Of a stretch of 64,000 nucleotides of DNA, positions 2,931 to 64,000 are shown piece after piece (the first letter of the stretch is position 1; each line of letters starts with the position of its first letter). This stretch comes from Muribaculaceae bacterium (lineage in GTDB: Bacteria; Bacteroidota; Bacteroidia; Bacteroidales; Muribaculaceae): NCBI GenBank assembly GCA_017409345.1, contig JAFQSX010000012.1, positions 81,388 through 145,387 on the forward strand, written 5' to 3'. The position numbers and the translations under genes are program-made. The notes below the pieces were generated by a model. The model saw nothing but the letters and a program-made list of their open reading frames with translations. It was not told the DNA's origin and did no database searches.

Positions 2931-3827
2931 ATGTCAAAAGACCTATTTAACCGCTATATATGGTTGGTTGATACAATTAAGCGTTATGGGCACATTACTC
3001 GCGAAGAGTTAAATGCTCGTTGGAAAAAATCTCCATTTTCAAATGGAGAGCCATTGCCTCGTCGCACATTCTATAACTATCGAATGGCGATAGAAGAGTT
3101 ATTTAAGGTAAATATTGAGTGTAATCCGTCAACATTTGAGTATTATATAGACGAAGGAGATACTCATAATGAGAGTGTTACGAATTGGCTACTTAACACT
3201 ACTGCCATGAGCAATGTGTTGAGTGAATCACGTAATATTTCAAATCGGATATTTATTGAAGATGTGCCGTCGGCTCGAGAATTTCTTGCGACAGTGATTG
3301 ATGCTCTAAAAGAGTTTCATCAAATAAAATTTACTTATCAACCCTATTCGCGAACAAATGCCACTCCCGACATTGTAGTTGAGCCATATTTCTTGAAGAT
3401 ATTCCGTCAACGCTGGTATGTGACCGGTCGCAATGTGAAAGAGGATAAGATTAAAACGTATGCACTAGATCGAATGAAGGATGTGGTAGTGTTGCAAGAA
3501 ACATTTGATATGCCTGAAGATTTTGATGCCGAGGTCTATACGAAATATAGTTATGGTATAATATTCTCTCAAGGTGAGATAAAAAATGTATCAATAAAAA
3601 CCGATTCTCGTCAAGCAAAATATCTTCGTGCATTGCCATTGCACTCGTCGCAACAAGAAATGATACATGACTCATATTCAATATTTAATTATCGCTTGCG
3701 TATTACTCCTGATTTTCTTCAAGAATTATTATCTCACGGACCAAATATCACGGTACTTGATCCTCCAGAATTAAAGGCGATGATAATAACAAGTCTCGAA
3801 GAAACCCTAGCTAACTATAAAAAATGA
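2931..3827 (+). CDS. WYL-domain transcriptional regulator
   Basis: A 298-residue cytoplasmic protein. The N-terminal 60 residues form a winged helix-turn-helix (ITREELNARWKKS, then PRRTFYNYRMAIEELF). Residues about 125-210 look like a WYL ligand-sensing domain (IKFTYQPYS, VEPYFLKIFRQRWYVTGR, KTYALDRM), and the C-terminus resembles the WCX extension. WYL proteins bind nucleic-acid-like ligands and often control stress or accessory loci; the target here is unknown. It lies 54 bp downstream of the symporter on the same strand and may be part of that unit. A hairpin at 3871-3899 terminates it. Confidence 0.85.
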   Translation: MSKDLFNRYIWLVDTIKRYGHITREELNARWKKSPFSNGEPLPRRTFYNYRMAIEELFKVNIECNPSTFEYYIDEGDTHNESVTNWLLNTTAMSNVLSESRNISNRIFIEDVPSAREFLATVIDALKEFHQIKFTYQPYSRTNATPDIVVEPYFLKIFRQRWYVTGRNVKEDKIKTYALDRMKDVVVLQETFDMPEDFDAEVYTKYSYGIIFSQGEIKNVSIKTDSRQAKYLRALPLHSSQQEMIHDSYSIFNYRLRITPDFLQELLSHGPNITVLDPPELKAMIITSLEETLANYKK

Positions 3828-4357: not shown

Positions 4358-4582
4358 ATAATACTAACTCGTTAAATCATTTTGCCTATGTAGCATAGAC
4401 ACAAAAGACATATTAGATAAAAAGCGTTAGCTTATATTTCGGTTATCCAAAATCGCCAATTTTGAACCAGCAACCTGAAGTAGAAGTTGATGCTCACGGT
4501 CTATCCGTGGGCTTTTACTTGTTTGGTTGCAACGTGTTTGGCGATACGTGGATAACAAATAAAGTTTGAGTCCACGTTTTTT
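4358..4582 (+). ncRNA. Candidate structured non-coding RNA with long imperfect hairpin
   Basis: The region lies between rubredoxin and an OM protein gene and has no credible ORF. Predicted transcript about 225 nt. A small hairpin, CTATG-tag-CATAG, lies near 4387-4399. The core at 4442-4556 folds into one long interrupted hairpin. Paired blocks are GTTATCC (4442-4448) with 4550-4556, ATCGCCAA (4452-4459) with 4538-4545, GCAACC (4470-4475) with 4525-4530, 4478-4485 with 4513-4520, and GCTCACGG (4492-4499) with 4505-4512, around the loop TCTAT. A central internal loop (4460-4469 against 4531-4537) gives a 6S-RNA-like outline. ACGTGGA (4546-4552) can instead pair with TCCACGT (4571-4577), followed by T6, as a terminator. 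Family not recognised; a 6S-type or Bacteroidales-1-like RNA is one possibility. Confidence 0.55.
4546..4582 (+). terminator. Terminator of the orphan RNA
   Basis: ACGTGGA (4546-4552) pairs with TCCACGT (4571-4577), with an inner CAAA/TTTG pairing and a run of six T at 4577-4582. Its left arm overlaps the outer stem of the long hairpin, so the two folds are partly exclusive. Confidence 0.55.
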
Positions 4583-4631
4583 ATTTGTCTGCCTTCAATA
4601 TTTTGGACTAAAATTAAATGGATGAAATGGA

Positions 4632-5202: not shown

Positions 5203-6480
5203 ATGAAAAAGTTTATCAATAAGTTTATATATGTGGCATTTGTTGTTGCCACATCATTAGTGTTTGTGGCTTGTAGCGAAGATGATGAGCCGGGAACAGG
5301 TGGAACCGGAAATATAAAAGAAGGTCAATTGGTTGATTTAGGATTGTCTGTGGATTGGGCCGGGTGGAATGTCGGTGCATCATCTCCTGAAGGATATGGT
5401 GATTATTTTGCTTGGGGTGAAACTAAATCTAAAAAAGACTATTCACTTTATGAATATAAATACTTTAATTCAGAAGATGGAGTGATTGATATTGGTGCCA
5501 ATATCAGTGGAACAAAATATGATGTTGCTCGTCACAAATGGGGAGGTGAATGGCGAATGCCTACTAAAGAGGAATTTAACGAATTGATAAATAAATGTCA
5601 ATGGGAATGGACTCAAGAAAAAGGAATAAGTGGCTATAAAGTTACTGGTCCAAATGGCAATAGCATCTTCCTTCCTGCTGCCGGTAATTATGATGGGGAG
5701 ACCAATGAAGATAAAGGTTCAGATGTCTCTTATTGGAGTGCCACGGTTGTAGTAACTCCCGGATATTCTTCTGAAGAAGCATATGCTCTTTTAAGTTCTA
5801 AACAGGTGAATCAAAGTATGAATGGAACTTACCGATGTGAAGGGCTCCCTGTTCGTCCGGTAATGACAAAGAAAGTAAATGAGCAACCTGAAGAAGAAGG
5901 CTCCGAGGAAGGCGACTCTGAAGAAGGTTCCGAAGACGAATCTGGTTTAGGGGTTAATCTTAAATTGACAAGTGGCACAATTTGGGCCAAGTGGAATGTG
6001 GGCGCCATCACTCCTGAAGGATATGGAGAATACTATGCTTGGGGGGAAACAATGGAAAAATCGGATTATTCTTTAGAAACATATGAATATTTTAAACAAG
6101 ATGTAGGCTATGTTGATAAGGGATATGATTATGATGTCGCTAGTCAAAAGTGGGGAGATGGATGGCGAATGCCTACTAAAGAGGAGTTTGAAGAATTAAA
6201 GAGAGAATGTGAATGGGATTGGACTCAACTCAATGGTGTGTATGGCTACGAAGTTACCGGTTCTAATGGCAAGAGTATCTTCCTCCCTGCAGCTGGATAT
6301 CGTGATGGATGTTTGCATTATGATGCAGGTAATGGAGGTAATTATTGGAGTGCCTCGTTGACAAATGGTGGGTTAGAACCCACAGCATGGGGCTTTGGTT
6401 TCAGTAGTAACTACTACGGATGTTCTGATGGATGTTATCGTATCTTAGGGCACACGATTCGTCCTGTAAAAAGCAAATGA
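5203..6480 (+). CDS. Lipoprotein with two tandem FISUMP-like domains
   Basis: A 425-residue surface or periplasmic lipoprotein. The lipobox FVACSED places the acylated Cys near residue 24. Two homologous domains follow, about residues 42-225 and 252-425. Each has VDLGLSVDWAGWNVG-like or LTSGTIWAKWNVG openings, PEGYGxYxAWGET, a HKWGGEWRMPTKEEF block, and a SIFLPAAGxxDG...YWSA core ending VRPV. This resembles the FISUMP / Fibrobacter major paralogous domain found in many Bacteroidales lipoproteins, of unknown function. A Glu/Ser-rich linker separates the copies. Probably co-expressed with the preceding barrel, from which it is 5 bp away. Confidence 0.7.
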   Translation: MKKFINKFIYVAFVVATSLVFVACSEDDEPGTGGTGNIKEGQLVDLGLSVDWAGWNVGASSPEGYGDYFAWGETKSKKDYSLYEYKYFNSEDGVIDIGANISGTKYDVARHKWGGEWRMPTKEEFNELINKCQWEWTQEKGISGYKVTGPNGNSIFLPAAGNYDGETNEDKGSDVSYWSATVVVTPGYSSEEAYALLSSKQVNQSMNGTYRCEGLPVRPVMTKKVNEQPEEEGSEEGDSEEGSEDESGLGVNLKLTSGTIWAKWNVGAITPEGYGEYYAWGETMEKSDYSLETYEYFKQDVGYVDKGYDYDVASQKWGDGWRMPTKEEFEELKRECEWDWTQLNGVYGYEVTGSNGKSIFLPAAGYRDGCLHYDAGNGGNYWSASLTNGGLEPTAWGFGFSSNYYGCSDGCYRILGHTIRPVKSK

Positions 6481-6611: not shown

Positions 6612-8282
6612 TTATGATGTCTTTTTGATACGTTGATATAAGTATCGTTTAATACTCTTTTTAGGAGTTCTTTCAAATGCTTCCGACATGACTTCGATTT
6701 TCTTCAAACGAGCATAATTTGGGAGGTCTTTGTTGATGTCGGGTAGGGTTGATTTGATGTATTTTGCAAATTCTTTTTGGCTCATTCCGTCTTTTGCCCC
6801 TTGGTCAAAGTCGGGGAATATCAATGCGGTGAGTCCTCCTTCATCTTCAATCACCAATGACTCTACGAAATAGGGTCTTACATCGAGCATCGCTTCAATT
6901 TCTTCGGGGTAGATATTTTGACCTGAAGGACCTAAAATCATACATTTTGAACGACCACGAAGGAATAGACTGCCATCGGCATCGATTATACCCATGTCGC
7001 CTGTGTGCAACCATCCATCTTCATCAAGAGCCTCGGCAGTGGCTTCGGGATTTTTGTAATACCCAAGGAATACGTTGGCTCCTCTAACAAGCAATTCTCC
7101 CGGAATGTTTTGAGGATCGGGAGAGTCGATTTTCATTTCCATGTTAGGGACAATCTCTCCACAAGAATATAGTTTTTCGGTTTTCCAATCGGAGTATGTG
7201 ATAATAGGAGCACATTCGGTCATGCCATAGCCCACGGTGAATGGGAATCCCATTCTCTTGAAGAATGTTTCAACCTCTTTGTTGAATGCTGCACCACCAA
7301 TAATCACTTCATAGAATTCGCCGCCAAATGCTTTGATGAGTTCGGCTTTTATCTTATTGGTAATCATTTGGTCAAGGCCGGGCACTTTTAATGCAAATCT
7401 TATTCCGGCTTTTTCCAATATCGGTTTTACCTTGTTTTTGTAAATCTTTTCAATAATAAGTGGAACGGCAATAACTACCGAAGGTTTTACTTCGGCAAGT
7501 GCTTGCAATATAATCTTAGGACTTGGAAGGCGAGAGAGGAAATGAACGTGACAACCTCTTGACAGTTCATATAAAACTTCAAACATGAGCCCATACATGT
7601 GTGCGCAAGGCAACATCGAAACTACATTTGACGTGTTGTTGATGGAAGGAAGTGCTTTTGCTCCAAACTCAAGATTTGAAGCAATGGCTCTAAAAGGAAT
7701 CATCACACCTTTAGAGAAACCGGATGTTCCCGAAGTGTAGTTTATGATAGCCAATTCATTGGGTTGGTCTTCGTGGTAGTCTAATAAATCGGGAGTGAAA
7801 GCCGTTGGATACTTTCGACCGAAAAACTCGTTAAGACGTGCTCTTGCTTCGGTGATTCTATCATTGGCTGAATATAATAGACTGAAATTATTGACCTGAA
7901 TGATTGCTTGTAATTCAGGCATTTCCGATTCGATGACATTTTCCCATATAACTTCGTCAACAAACAAAACTTTTGCTTCAGAGTGGTTGACAAGATGATG
8001 AATGTTTGAAGGTTTGAATTCATGCATCAATGGTACGGGTACTGCACCATAAGTTAGTGTTGCGAGAAATGATACAGCCCAATTGGCTTGGTTCCGAGAG
8101 CATATTGCAACTTTGTCGCCTTTCTCAAGACCACATTCCTCAAACATGATGTGTAGTTTTGCGATAAGGCGAGCAACATCGCGATAGTGTAAAGTGGCGC
8201 CTTGGTAGTTTGAAATAGCCGGGCGATCCCAGTTTTCGCGAAAAGAAGCCTCAAAAGTTTTGTTTACTGATATAAAGTTCAT
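6612..8282 (-). CDS. AMP-forming acyl-CoA (or acyl-ACP) synthetase
   Basis: A 556-residue ANL-superfamily enzyme that activates a carboxylic acid, probably a fatty acid, via an acyl-adenylate. Motifs visible include the ATP loop INYTSGTSGFSKGV (about 179-192), the FAD/ADP-type GYGMTECAPI, TGDMG, and GRSKCMILGPSGQNIYPEEIE near the C-terminal hinge. The start at 8282 (MNFISVNKTF) is chosen because AAGGA lies 8 bases upstream. A promoter at 8309-8339 would also overlap any longer 5' extension. It is monocistronic. Long-chain acyl-CoA ligase is the best guess from overall form; acyl-ACP synthetase is an alternative. Confidence 0.85.
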   Translation of the reverse strand: MNFISVNKTFEASFRENWDRPAISNYQGATLHYRDVARLIAKLHIMFEECGLEKGDKVAICSRNQANWAVSFLATLTYGAVPVPLMHEFKPSNIHHLVNHSEAKVLFVDEVIWENVIESEMPELQAIIQVNNFSLLYSANDRITEARARLNEFFGRKYPTAFTPDLLDYHEDQPNELAIINYTSGTSGFSKGVMIPFRAIASNLEFGAKALPSINNTSNVVSMLPCAHMYGLMFEVLYELSRGCHVHFLSRLPSPKIILQALAEVKPSVVIAVPLIIEKIYKNKVKPILEKAGIRFALKVPGLDQMITNKIKAELIKAFGGEFYEVIIGGAAFNKEVETFFKRMGFPFTVGYGMTECAPIITYSDWKTEKLYSCGEIVPNMEMKIDSPDPQNIPGELLVRGANVFLGYYKNPEATAEALDEDGWLHTGDMGIIDADGSLFLRGRSKCMILGPSGQNIYPEEIEAMLDVRPYFVESLVIEDEGGLTALIFPDFDQGAKDGMSQKEFAKYIKSTLPDINKDLPNYARLKKIEVMSEAFERTPKKSIKRYLYQRIKKTS

Positions 8283-60563: not shown

Positions 60564-60597
60564 ACGGTGTGTCAAATTGATTGATGCACCGTTTTTT
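60564..60597. terminator. Terminator between DUF805 and the RecD-like gene
   Basis: ACGGTGTGTCAA (60564-60575) pairs with TTGATGCACCGT (60581-60592) including G-T pairs, followed by six T. It lies between two convergent genes and overlaps the RecD-like stop. Confidence 0.75.
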
Positions 60598-62005
60598 ATT
60601 TCACTTCGACCGATGGATTGATGAGGTAGAGGCGATGTGTGGCACGAGTGATGGCTGTGTAGAGCCAGCGATAAAATTCCATGCCTTGTGCTTCGGGTGC
60701 AATATACCCCATGTCAATGAACACATTTTTCCATTGTCCACCTTGTGCTTTATGGCAAGTCACGGCATAAGCATATTTGATTTGCAAAGCATTGAAATAA
60801 GGGTCACTTTTGAGTTTTTTGAGCCTTGTTGACATTGGTGTTTCAGGAGTGAAGTTGTCGGGGTTATTAATGCATTTATTGTAAAGAGTTGATGCTTGTT
60901 CGGGAGGTAGTCCGGGAGATTCAAAAGTGAGTGTTGAAAGCATTAGTTTGGTCTCAAGTTCAATGTCACGGTCGGGGAGTTGTATCTTTGCATCGGCAAA
61001 TAGAAATCCATATTTTGTTTCGGTGCCGTAAATTTTTGTTACAAGTGCCACATCTCCGTTGGCAATGAAATCAATACCTTTTACTTTAGAACTCCACAAA
61101 TAGTTGTTTTTTGCTACGATAATCAATTCGTCATTACATAAGTATTCTTCTTTCTCAAGAATTGTGCTACGAATGGCTAAATTGAATTTTACGGCTCGCT
61201 GATTGGATCGAGTTATTAAGATTGTTTCCTCTATCCCGTCACGACAATAGGCATCATTGAGAACATCAATTAAGTCTTCACTTAAAACCGGAATAACATC
61301 GGCAAAGTTTGAAGCAAGAAGTTGAGGTGTGGGTAATGGGTCGGTGAGCATGGCGCGACGCAACCATGTAGCATTATATAATATCCCACTATCAGATGCT
61401 TGTCGGGCAGTAGCAGTGAGAGTGGCACGTGTTACTCTCAATCCGAGAGATTTCAGCACATTTACTGTCATTGCCGGAGAGAACTGACACCCCACCGGGG
61501 GTAATTGGGCGGTGTCGCCAAGTAATATTAATCGACAATTGTCACCGGTATATACATAGTGAATGAGGTCTTCGAGCAGATCGCTGCCATTGTCACCGCG
61601 TGAACCTATCATTGAAGCCTCATCGACGATGAAGATTGTGTTATGATGACGATTTTCGGCGACTGTGGCAATATATGAAATAGCATCGCCCGATGATGAT
61701 TGGCGATAGATTTTGCGATGGATAGTGTAGGCCGGGTGCTTGGCAAATCGTCCGAACACTTTTGCTGCTCTACCGGTAGGAGCAAGTAATACCGATGGGA
61801 TGTTAACCTCATTGAGCGAACGCACTAATGCACCGGTGAGGGATGTTTTCCCCGTCCCGGCATATCCGTTGAGAAGAAATGCCGAGTCGCTTGGCGATAA
61901 AGGAGAGCAAAAACGAGCCAATGCCGCAATGAGTTGAATTTGTTGCTCATTGGGGTCATAAGGCAAGTTTAATACAATCCGTTCGGCAAATTCCAATGCG
62001 TCCAT
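60596..62005 (-). CDS. RecD-like / AAA superfamily 1 DNA helicase
   Basis: A 469-residue ATPase. Walker A is NGYAGTGKTSL (about 46-56); the Walker B-like segment is TIFIVDEASMIG. GDTAQLPPVGCQFSP is motif III, and the C-terminal UvrD_C_2-type motif YAVTCHKAQGGQWKNVFID precedes YRWLYTAITRATHRLYLI. It resembles a compact stand-alone RecD2-type helicase without long N-terminal extension. The start at 62005 (MDALEFAERIV) is supported by a decayed copy of the same 5' end at 63122-63163, which retains this ATG. The gene lies 49 bp downstream of a truncated Fic fragment. Confidence 0.88.
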   Translation of the reverse strand: MDALEFAERIVLNLPYDPNEQQIQLIAALARFCSPLSPSDSAFLLNGYAGTGKTSLTGALVRSLNEVNIPSVLLAPTGRAAKVFGRFAKHPAYTIHRKIYRQSSSGDAISYIATVAENRHHNTIFIVDEASMIGSRGDNGSDLLEDLIHYVYTGDNCRLILLGDTAQLPPVGCQFSPAMTVNVLKSLGLRVTRATLTATARQASDSGILYNATWLRRAMLTDPLPTPQLLASNFADVIPVLSEDLIDVLNDAYCRDGIEETILITRSNQRAVKFNLAIRSTILEKEEYLCNDELIIVAKNNYLWSSKVKGIDFIANGDVALVTKIYGTETKYGFLFADAKIQLPDRDIELETKLMLSTLTFESPGLPPEQASTLYNKCINNPDNFTPETPMSTRLKKLKSDPYFNALQIKYAYAVTCHKAQGGQWKNVFIDMGYIAPEAQGMEFYRWLYTAITRATHRLYLINPSVEVK

Positions 62006-62008
62006 AAT
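61974..62008. repeat. 35-bp direct repeat, copy 1 (helicase start)
   Basis: Identical at every base to 63132-63166. It covers the first 10 codons of the helicase gene and 3 bases upstream. Confidence 0.9.
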
Positions 62009-62054
62009 GTTCAAAGAGGTTGATAATCGCAATTATAACATAATTATAAAGACT

Positions 62055-62183
62055 TTAATGCAGCGTTAATCGGTTTGATAAAACGATTGAATATAGGTTG
62101 TCGTCATAGTCCCATGCCCCACGCACTTCTTTGTCGTTAAATAAGCGAATTAATATTTTATGTTGTTGATTGTGTTGTTCCAT
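62055..62183 (-). pseudogene. Truncated duplicate of the Fic gene 5' end
   Basis: A 42-codon frame whose first 28 residues (MEQHNQQHKILIRLFNDKEV, then RGAWDYDDN) closely match the start of the adjacent full Fic protein (MEQNNQQHKISIRFFNDKEV). Homology ends there and the frame runs into unrelated sequence and a stop. About 10 bases of leader (TTCTCATTT) are also shared. It lies 9 bp downstream of the full gene on the same strand, so it is a tandem partial copy or remnant. Confidence 0.85.
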
Positions 62184-62192
62184 AAATGAGAA

Positions 62193-63077
62193 TTAATTAT
62201 CTTGTTCATAATAATATGAATAATCAATACCTTTCATAAACATTTCACGGTCATTTATTTTGTCGGTTAAAGCATTAGCTATTAACTTCCGTATTTTTGT
62301 CGGATTTACCACACTTAAACGCATTGCTTCCATATATTCGGTTTTGTCGATTTTACTCCAATCTACACAACTTTTTAATGATTGTTTAAGCATTAAATCT
62401 AACCAAATTCGAGCACTTCTGCCGTTCCCTTCCATAAATGGGTGTGCAATATTCATTTCCACGTATTTATCAACAATTTCGTCAATAGTTGTCTCTGGCA
62501 TTTTATCAATCTGAGACATAGTTTGTCCAAGAAATTGAGATACTGCAAATTGAAAACCACCTTTAGAAATATTCTTTTGGCGTATTTGTCCGGCAAAGTC
62601 ATATAGCCCACCAAAAAGATAAGCATGTATTTGTTGCAATCCTCGTGTAGTACCAATCTCAATAGTTTGTAACAAGGAGCTATCCCAAAGTTGGTATGCT
62701 TTATCTCGGCTCTTGCTGTCTATCTGGTCTTCACCGGTAATTATCCATTTTGCAAAAGTAATAGCATGTTGGCTTGGCACAGCTTCCACAAGACTAAGCA
62801 TTTCATTTTGTGGCAAACAATCAGTTAAATATCGCTTGCCGTCAGACGCAACGAGTTTCAGTTGGTTACAGCGTGTAACCAACTCATTGCCACTTTTGGT
62901 CAAGCGATGTTTCATTACTTTCCAATAGTTTCGAGGATTTTTACTGTCGGTAAGGACCGCAATAACATCAACGACAGAGAACAACCAACGGTTGCCATCA
63001 TAGTCCCATGCAGCACGCACTTCCTTGTCATTAAAGAAGCGAATGGATATTTTATGTTGTTGATTGTTTTGTTCCAT
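62193..63077 (-). CDS. Fic-domain protein with BRO/antirepressor-like N-terminus
   Basis: A 294-residue protein. Residues 1-120 resemble a BRO-N/phage-antirepressor-like domain (ISIRFFNDKEVRAAWDYDGN, FSVVDVIAVLTDS, RNYWKVMKHRL). Residues about 145-270 are a Fic domain with the motif HPFMEGNGR (212-220), which has the catalytic His and phosphate-binding loop of AMP-transferases. The C-terminus SYYYEQ (287-292) fits a class III inhibitory motif, [S/T]xxxE[G/N], with Q at the last position. Fic enzymes usually AMPylate target proteins; the target here is unknown. A promoter (63171-63201) precedes it, followed by a 13-codon helicase fragment. Confidence 0.85.
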   Translation of the reverse strand: MEQNNQQHKISIRFFNDKEVRAAWDYDGNRWLFSVVDVIAVLTDSKNPRNYWKVMKHRLTKSGNELVTRCNQLKLVASDGKRYLTDCLPQNEMLSLVEAVPSQHAITFAKWIITGEDQIDSKSRDKAYQLWDSSLLQTIEIGTTRGLQQIHAYLFGGLYDFAGQIRQKNISKGGFQFAVSQFLGQTMSQIDKMPETTIDEIVDKYVEMNIAHPFMEGNGRSARIWLDLMLKQSLKSCVDWSKIDKTEYMEAMRLSVVNPTKIRKLIANALTDKINDREMFMKGIDYSYYYEQDN

Positions 63078-63121
63078 AAATGAGAATTAAATTTGGAGTA
63101 AAAATTGCTAAAAGGGTATGT

Positions 63122-63163
63122 TTAATAATACACAATCCGTTCGGCAAATTCCAATGCGTCCAT
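63122..63163 (-). pseudogene. Decayed 5' fragment of the RecD-like gene
   Basis: The frame MDALEFAERIVYY-stop repeats the first 11 residues of the helicase at 60596-62005 (DNA identity 35 of 35 at 63132-63166), then diverges after a 5-bp insertion and stops. It sits just downstream of the promoter at 63171-63201 and upstream of the Fic gene. Confidence 0.85.
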
Positions 63164-63166
63164 AAT
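63132..63166. repeat. 35-bp direct repeat, copy 2
   Basis: Exact copy of 61974-62008; the two copies bracket 1,123 bp holding the Fic gene and its truncated duplicate. Confidence 0.9.
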
Positions 63167-63170
63167 ATTG

Positions 63171-63201
63171 CAAAGGTAGTGCAAGCCGAGCGCAAAAACA
63201 A
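63171..63201 (-). promoter_or_regulatory. Promoter upstream of the Fic cassette
   Basis: On the minus strand TTG (63199-63201), 20 bases and TACCTTTG (63171-63178). Predicted start near 63164, almost at the ATG of the helicase fragment. It was probably the original helicase promoter and now drives Fic. The -33 end lies in the first 85-bp repeat unit. Confidence 0.6.
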
Positions 63202-63402
63202 ATTAAGCTTGCTTAAATTTGTTTTGCCGAGGCGCAGCCTACCTAAGGCGCCAGCCAACGGTAGAAAAGAAAGAGCGCAAAAGCAAATTAAGTTTGTTTA
63301 AATTTGTTTTGCCGAGGCGCGGCCTACCTAAGGCGCCAGCCAACGGTAGAAAAGAAAGAGCGCAAAAGCAAATTAAGCTTGCTTAAATTTGTTTTGCCGA
63401 GG
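63188..63402. repeat. 85-bp tandem repeat, two and a half copies
   Basis: Copies start at 63188, 63273 and 63358 (period exactly 85), the last breaking off near 63402. Each contains the imperfect palindrome CAAATTAAGCTTGCTTAAATTTG. In the middle copy two C-to-T changes convert AAGC/GCTT to AAGT/GTTT, which still pairs as G-U RNA. The array lies between the divergent Fic promoter and the porin-like gene. Confidence 0.9.
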
Positions 63403-63417
63403 TGGTGCATATCTTTG
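63388..63417 (+). promoter_or_regulatory. Possible promoter of the porin-like gene
   Basis: TTTG (63388-63391), 18 bases, TATCTTTG (63410-63417); TACCTTTG at 63452-63459 is a second -7 candidate. The last repeat copy ends between the elements. Confidence 0.45.
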
Positions 63418-63481
63418 CTTGTTGCTTTTTTATTTTGTGTATTATTTTCAATACCTTTGTATCGTGAAATAAAATTAAGAA

Positions 63482-64000
63482 ATGATGAAGAAAATCTTTT
63501 TGATAGTTGTGATGTTGTTGGGCGTTGGAGTTGTGTTGAATGCACAGGAAACGCAAGATACAACAAAAAACGAACCTAAGGGTAAGGCCATTATTCAAGT
63601 ATTTGCCAATGCTCACACCGGTTTTGGTGCCGATAATGATGACCGCGGATTTGAACTCGATCGCAGTTATGTGGGGTATCAATATCAATTAACCAAAGAT
63701 TTGTCAATCAAGGCAGTGCTTGAGGTGGGACAGTCGAGTGATGTAGATGATTATCACCATATCGCTTATGTGAAGAACGCACAAGTTACTTGGAAGCCCG
63801 GACGTTGGACCCTCGACGGCGGTCTCATCTCTACCACTCAATTCAAGGTGCAAGAGAAGCATTGGGGCTATCGCTATATAATGAAATCGTTTCAAGACGA
63901 GTATAAATTTGGTAGCAGTGCCGACCTCGGTATCTCGGCGGCATATAAGTTTAATGATGTGGTAAGTGCCGATGCTATTATCGTTAATGGTGAGGGGTAC
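63482..64000 (+). CDS. Porin-like outer-membrane protein (C-terminus outside window)
   Basis: At least 173 codons, open to the window edge. Begins MMKKIFLIVVMLLGVGVVLN with a signal peptide ending near LNAQ. The mature part has FANAHTGFGADNDDRGFELDRSYVGYQYQLTKDLSIKAVLEVGQ-like strands (given in consecutive pieces), as in Bacteroidetes porin or phosphate-selective-porin-like proteins. Start could be 63482 or 63485. Substrate unknown. Confidence 0.7.
   Translation, partial: MMKKIFLIVVMLLGVGVVLNAQETQDTTKNEPKGKAIIQVFANAHTGFGADNDDRGFELDRSYVGYQYQLTKDLSIKAVLEVGQSSDVDDYHHIAYVKNAQVTWKPGRWTLDGGLISTTQFKVQEKHWGYRYIMKSFQDEYKFGSSADLGISAAYKFNDVVSADAIIVNGEGY

Follow-up and report, generated by a model that had tools for sequence, protein, structure and literature searches.

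The stretch of DNA analysed here (the window) covers 64,000 nt of a Muribaculaceae genome, referred to below as G000. On its minus strand the promoter comes first, followed by one copy of the helicase start (A', the outer copy), the fic gene, the relic of another fic start (B'), a further copy of the helicase start (A, the inner copy), and finally the intact helicase. This is an SF1 helicase of 469 aa (60596-62005; Pfam UvrD_C_2 and AAA_30), the frame of which runs from an ATG at 62005 down to 60596; the initial annotation had also placed an intact helicase at the inner copy. The direct repeat and the early death of the outer frame that it had claimed were likewise recovered. Positions 61974-62011 and 63132-63169 match over 38 nt at 97% and are exact across the 35 nt originally claimed, and the outer frame (MDALEFAERIVYY, 63122-63163) starts with an ATG at 63163 and comprises 13 codons and a stop ending at 63122. 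By our own estimate, which assumes uniform bases, the chance of such a 35-mer recurring within 64 kb is about 2e-12. The original promoter assigned to the outer copy, TTG-N20-TACCTTTG at 63171-63201, also stands, and a matching promoter is kept at the insert-free locus of the relative G011. The assignment uses the Bacteroidota promoter consensus.

The duplicated unit is better described as 46 nt, extending from the -7 box to about codon 11, a point absent from the initial annotation. The outer target copy A' then spans 63132-63177 and is identical at 46 of 46 positions to the inner copy of another relative, G003; the inner copy A, with which the intact helicase begins, lies at 61974-62011. Between A and A' is an insert of 1120 bp (63131-62012). 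Its ORFs are fic and chance frames, none of them a transposase gene, and no integrase gene occurs between the repeats; its other feature is the fic relic. This relic forms part of a second direct repeat, newly recognised here, in which the fic start (B, 62990-63090) recurs behind fic (B', 62096-62196) over 101 nt at 90%. B' is present in G006 too. Because the duplicated helicase start occurs in three separate assemblies (G000, G006, and G003), an assembly error is unlikely. Fic relics take several forms: no more than a start in the window, a shortened fic in G006 (C40:65711-65794), and in G004 a start fused to an end (C4:123967-124208). Upstream of the insert, 63171-63425 holds three tandem copies of an 85-nt unit, which is part of a repeat of about 105 bp.

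The cargo encodes a Bro-N/Fic fusion of 294 aa (62193-63077). Pfam recognises the Fic domain, and the Bro-N-like N-terminal part matches at E 0.001, below its cut-off. NCBIfam NF046029 is matched at 271 bits (cut-off 230), and PADLOC assigns the gene to PDC-S04 with a match that covers almost all of it. Among solved structures, NmFic matches best; HPF-EGNGR and a C-terminal SYYYE are found in both proteins, and we read the SYYYE of the window protein as a self-inhibition motif. We infer that the window Fic is a self-inhibited adenylyltransferase with a candidate defence role. It agrees with NmFic-type enzymes in sequence (NF046029 above cut-off, both motifs) and, unlike NmFic, it has an added Bro-N-like part at the N terminus; a full-text literature search returned no paper combining a Fic domain with Bro-N.

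Several possible origins of the gene were considered. A plasmid origin was rejected, as 1364 plasmid records match and only one of them covers at least 80% of the protein. As to a phage origin, two of 42 viral stretches matching a pattern encode a relative. Conserved cassette ends were ruled out, since the fic genes of the nearest relatives have only about nine bases in common after the stop (TTCTCATTT or close); little sequence is common before the start, which argues against transposon-like ends. A defence label for the neighbours of the fic gene in G009 (L199) was dropped, with 0 PADLOC families among the two proteins scanned.

The helicase start in related genomes

A helicase match was found in 114 of 118 genomes, the window's own included, and window positions 61501-63600 were compared with 29 of the relatives' helicase loci. 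Two start copies were seen at 2 of these 29 loci (L004 in G006 and L007 in G003), in a comparison at the DNA level in which a second copy could escape notice where loci are more diverged. G006 has the same Fic arrangement as the window. G007 and G011, which belong to the same genus, have one helicase start and no insert. The upstream gene in G007 is that of the window (76.6% over 440 nt), and because it sits about 190 nt from the helicase, this locus is a direct empty site. The G011 promoter agrees with the outer copies in G000 and G003 but not with the inner ones; the outer copy therefore represents the 5' side of the original target and the inner copy its 3' side. Such a polarity is what target duplication requires.

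G003 shares with the window both the duplicated start and the inner flanks, which measure 54 nt on the left side and about 45 nt on the right side; there they surround an unrelated gene of the DUF1016_N/YhcG_C type, which PADLOC assigns to PDC-S02. The flanks correspond to 63078-63131 and 62012-62056 in the window, and the left match stops at 63078, one base before the fic ATG. The fic gene of G003 is located on a different contig (L198, G003:C14:80000-93000), where a type III methyltransferase and restriction gene lie nearby, as does a fragment that matches TaqI_C weakly and below cut-off. Since G003 encloses DUF1016/YhcG, the duplication marks an insertion site at which the cargo has been exchanged, and it need not be the doing of Fic. 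The earlier suggestion that Fic itself made the duplication is thus not upheld: G003 has no Fic at this site, yet it has the outer fragment, with DUF1016/YhcG inside the same duplication and between the same inner flanks. The initial annotation had expected relatives without Fic to lack the outer fragment; this holds for the cargo-free G007 and G011 and fails for G003, which is Fic-free at the site and has the fragment. These loci show the helicase start to be a place of insertion open to more than one kind of lone gene.

Between G000 and G006, DNA identity is 97.1% in fic, 94.2% on the upstream side, and 80.3% in the helicase, where it amounts to 85.7% in the first 300 bases and 78-79% beyond. 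This mosaic fits an import of cargo and upstream flank by recombination. A tree of the helicase DNA joins G007 and G011 at 1.0 and does not group the carriers G000, G003, and G006; G000 is placed nearer the empty pair with a support of 0.545. Either one insertion followed by losses or several gains may be compatible with this tree.

Duplication of the helicase 5' region in tandem, followed by decay, was the other origin put forward in the initial annotation; fic would then have entered between the copies at a later time and by chance. Local duplications do exist here, as the second repeat B/B' and the tandem 85-nt array show, but the cargo-free relatives have a single start, the insert consists of foreign genes and not of upstream helicase DNA, and similar repeats flank other lone genes. 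This scenario is not needed, and we regard it as very improbable. The insertion that the same annotation proposed, with a long duplication of its target and here placed near codon 11-12, is supported by the empty loci of G007 and G011 and by an independent case at ychF (L064, below).

What is observed at this locus is a duplicated start, relatives with an empty site, a different cargo in G003, and a fic gene more alike between two species than the adjoining helicase. The best explanation, to which we assign a probability of about 80%, is that the 5' end of the helicase gene received a lone candidate defence gene, with about 46 bp of target left on both sides, and that the cargo was later exchanged. 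On entry, the target from the -7 box to about codon 11 would have been doubled, so that the outer copy would retain the original promoter and start, now leading into the cargo, and the inner copy would keep the helicase frame whole. The cargo would since have been swapped, giving Bro-N/Fic in G000 and G006 and DUF1016/YhcG in G003. The old helicase promoter would drive fic, and transcription would reach the helicase by read-through or start at a weak promoter within the insert. Because the insert contains no recombinase gene and fic genes elsewhere have no clear common ends, the first joining was probably illegitimate, with two distant nicks filled in or by template switching. Homologous recombination, with either the flanks or the two copies as its substrates, could have brought about later spread and exchange.

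Direct repeats around other lone candidate defence genes

A total of 81 fic loci (L063-L143) were tested for flanking repeats; L144, a viral partial match, was not entered. Four were dropped: L143 (viral), L070 (repeat coordinates equal to those of L069), and L067 and L136 (no closed fic ORF). Fifteen of the remaining 77 had less than 600 bp of flank, which left 62 to be scored. Direct repeats of at least 50 bits within 600 bp on both sides were counted, with limits set after seeing early results, and 197 other ORFs of 150-450 aa from the same loci served as controls, these being neighbours and not matched accessory genes. Long direct repeats flanked 13/62 fic genes vs 3/197 control ORFs (Fisher p 9e-7). 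With bit limits from 40 to 100, the counts were 9 to 13 of 62 for fic and 2 to 3 of 197 for controls. Another 30 fic loci, taken from whole genomes, yielded 6/25, 5 being too short; among the six are the locus in the window, that of G006, and L039, the same locus as L064.

Two further families, of which only the 30 loci returned for each were tested, gave similar results. Repeats flanked 5/26 DUF1016 genes (4 too short; p 7e-4) and 3/24 genes for RhuM (6 too short; p 0.018), the protein of which PADLOC assigns to PDC-S05. One of the five DUF1016 positives, L154, adjoins a paralogue, which may explain its repeat. Helicase and ychF loci used as controls had repeats in 0/28 (2 too short) and 0/10 (2 too short) cases, respectively. 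When fic, DUF1016, and RhuM are pooled, the count is 21/112 vs 3/197 (p 1e-7). The tested rows are not all independent, as L113 and L123 share junction bases and probably stem from one event. Some of the fic repeats may be dispersed ones, since that of L082 looks palindromic and that of L076 looks to be of low complexity. At L082, three repeat copies (4529-4600, 6230-6299, 6915-6986) separate fic from a gene for a 23S rRNA-intervening-sequence protein. As judged from these counts, the recurrence of long repeats around lone candidate defence genes is the new point here.

The repeats at the 13 other fic loci are 35-302 bp long and differ in sequence, which also bears on whether A' and A could be attachment-site copies of a former integrase-based element of which a single gene is left after decay. 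An identical core of 46 bp by which the host gene is rebuilt is reminiscent of attachment sites, and two different cargoes share the same inner flanks at the helicase. The lack of an integrase in the insert and the unlike repeats at other fic loci speak against such an element, and we consider it unlikely.

The initial annotation had asked whether other fic genes are flanked by copies of host 5' ends. This is true of a minority: the downstream copy carries the start codon of another same-strand ORF in 4/62 fic cases vs 1/197 controls, the fic cases being ychF (L064), hsdR (L083), and a DUF3298 gene (L113 and L123), and it covers no ORF start in the other 9 of the 13 repeat cases. At L064, the sequence ahead of fic copies the ychF promoter together with some 34 codons, at 94% over 175 nt. 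Loci from 11 relatives each have a single ychF start. An empty site for ychF was sought among these loci and rejected, as the L064 upstream gene was not found beside the single start; the relatives therefore show only the single-copy status of ychF. In the two Flavobacteriales loci (L113 and L123), fic follows a copy of 140-149 nt of the DUF3298 gene start, in which a truncated frame of 34 codons ends in a TGA that overlaps the fic ATG, suggesting coupled translation. L083 has three copies of the hsdR start (1908-1987, 3015-3049, 4406-4484), between which lie, in this order, a Y1 (IS200-like) transposase gene and fic; intact hsdR lies downstream of fic and the start fragments upstream.

Shorter copies across the start of the next gene were found at L038 (21 nt) and L055 (34 nt). 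These two were the only ones of 48 fic/next-gene pairs to score at least 14, compared with 0/2256 swapped pairs and 1/92 other neighbours, and copied starts were rejected as a general rule.

The enrichment of repeats around fic, DUF1016, and RhuM might reflect nothing more than accessory genes in repeat-rich regions, in which case the window would be a true insertion that belongs to no class. This account is possible, if somewhat doubtful: it is favoured by the nine repeat cases that cover no ORF start, by L082, which at least looks dispersed, and by the use of neighbour ORFs instead of matched accessory genes as controls. Against it, just 3/197 control ORFs, drawn from these very loci, have repeats, and repeats with another ORF's start also differ between fic (4/62) and controls (1/197).

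We tentatively consider, at a level well short of an even chance, that lone Fic/PDC-S04, DUF1016/PDC-S02, and RhuM/PDC-S05 genes form a class of one-gene mobile units entering behind host promoters with a copied host start. The host gene would be left whole, the newcomer would gain a promoter, and the copies would serve as recombination sites for its replacement. If this is true, such units would provide a general route for embedding defence genes in other operons.

Known systems and promoter capture

Insertion with long target duplication of restriction-modification genes was reportedly noted by Nobusato et al. 2000 (Gene 259:99). By its sequence, the window pattern is this known type of event. 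The insert is flanked by direct repeats of the target, the repeat is single at the unoccupied G007 and G011 loci, and the repeats, which are long and differ in length (on the scale of 100 bp in known cases), measure 46 bp here and 35-302 bp at the 13 other fic loci. The process is described for restriction-modification genes (PMC3031569, PMC1643837, PMC3874152), a cargo which we take as usual and not as defining. Unlike those insertions, the cargo at the window site is a lone Fic or DUF1016 gene, the copied target comprises a promoter end and a start codon, and the cargo has been swapped at one site. A full-text literature search for Fic or DUF1016 with duplication terms found nothing for most term combinations.

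Many candidate defence genes are recognised via their embedding in other defence operons. PDC-S04, S02, and S05 are such candidates from "guilt-by-embedding" (PMC12988326, PMC12255303), and validation is pending for most core-set embedding candidates (PMC12988326). The window fic (PDC-S04), the G003 cargo (PDC-S02), and RhuM (PDC-S05) match the models of these candidates; unlike them, the window gene precedes a helicase gene. The duplication suggests how embedding can spare a host gene, as a copied gene start explains how newcomer and host gene can both stay usable. A copied start is moreover a searchable footprint, and relatives with an empty site provide a test of insertion.

Promoter capture fits the anatomy of the window locus. 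In an author-picked set of 22 upstream copies, the forward -7 motif TANNTTTG is present in only 8 and the reversed motif in 2, so promoter capture does not appear general and was rejected as a rule. The inner copy A does not contain the full TANNTTTG, and the helicase is therefore probably expressed by read-through or from a new promoter.

The repeat of about 105 bp, to which the tandem 85-nt units upstream of A' belong, has further copies on contigs C2, C6, and C8 of the window genome. It ends at a -7 box, followed by unrelated sequence. A 25-nt pattern from this end has six matches with at most 2 mismatches on five contigs, and the reversed pattern has 0. The element looks like a dispersed repeat carrying a promoter.
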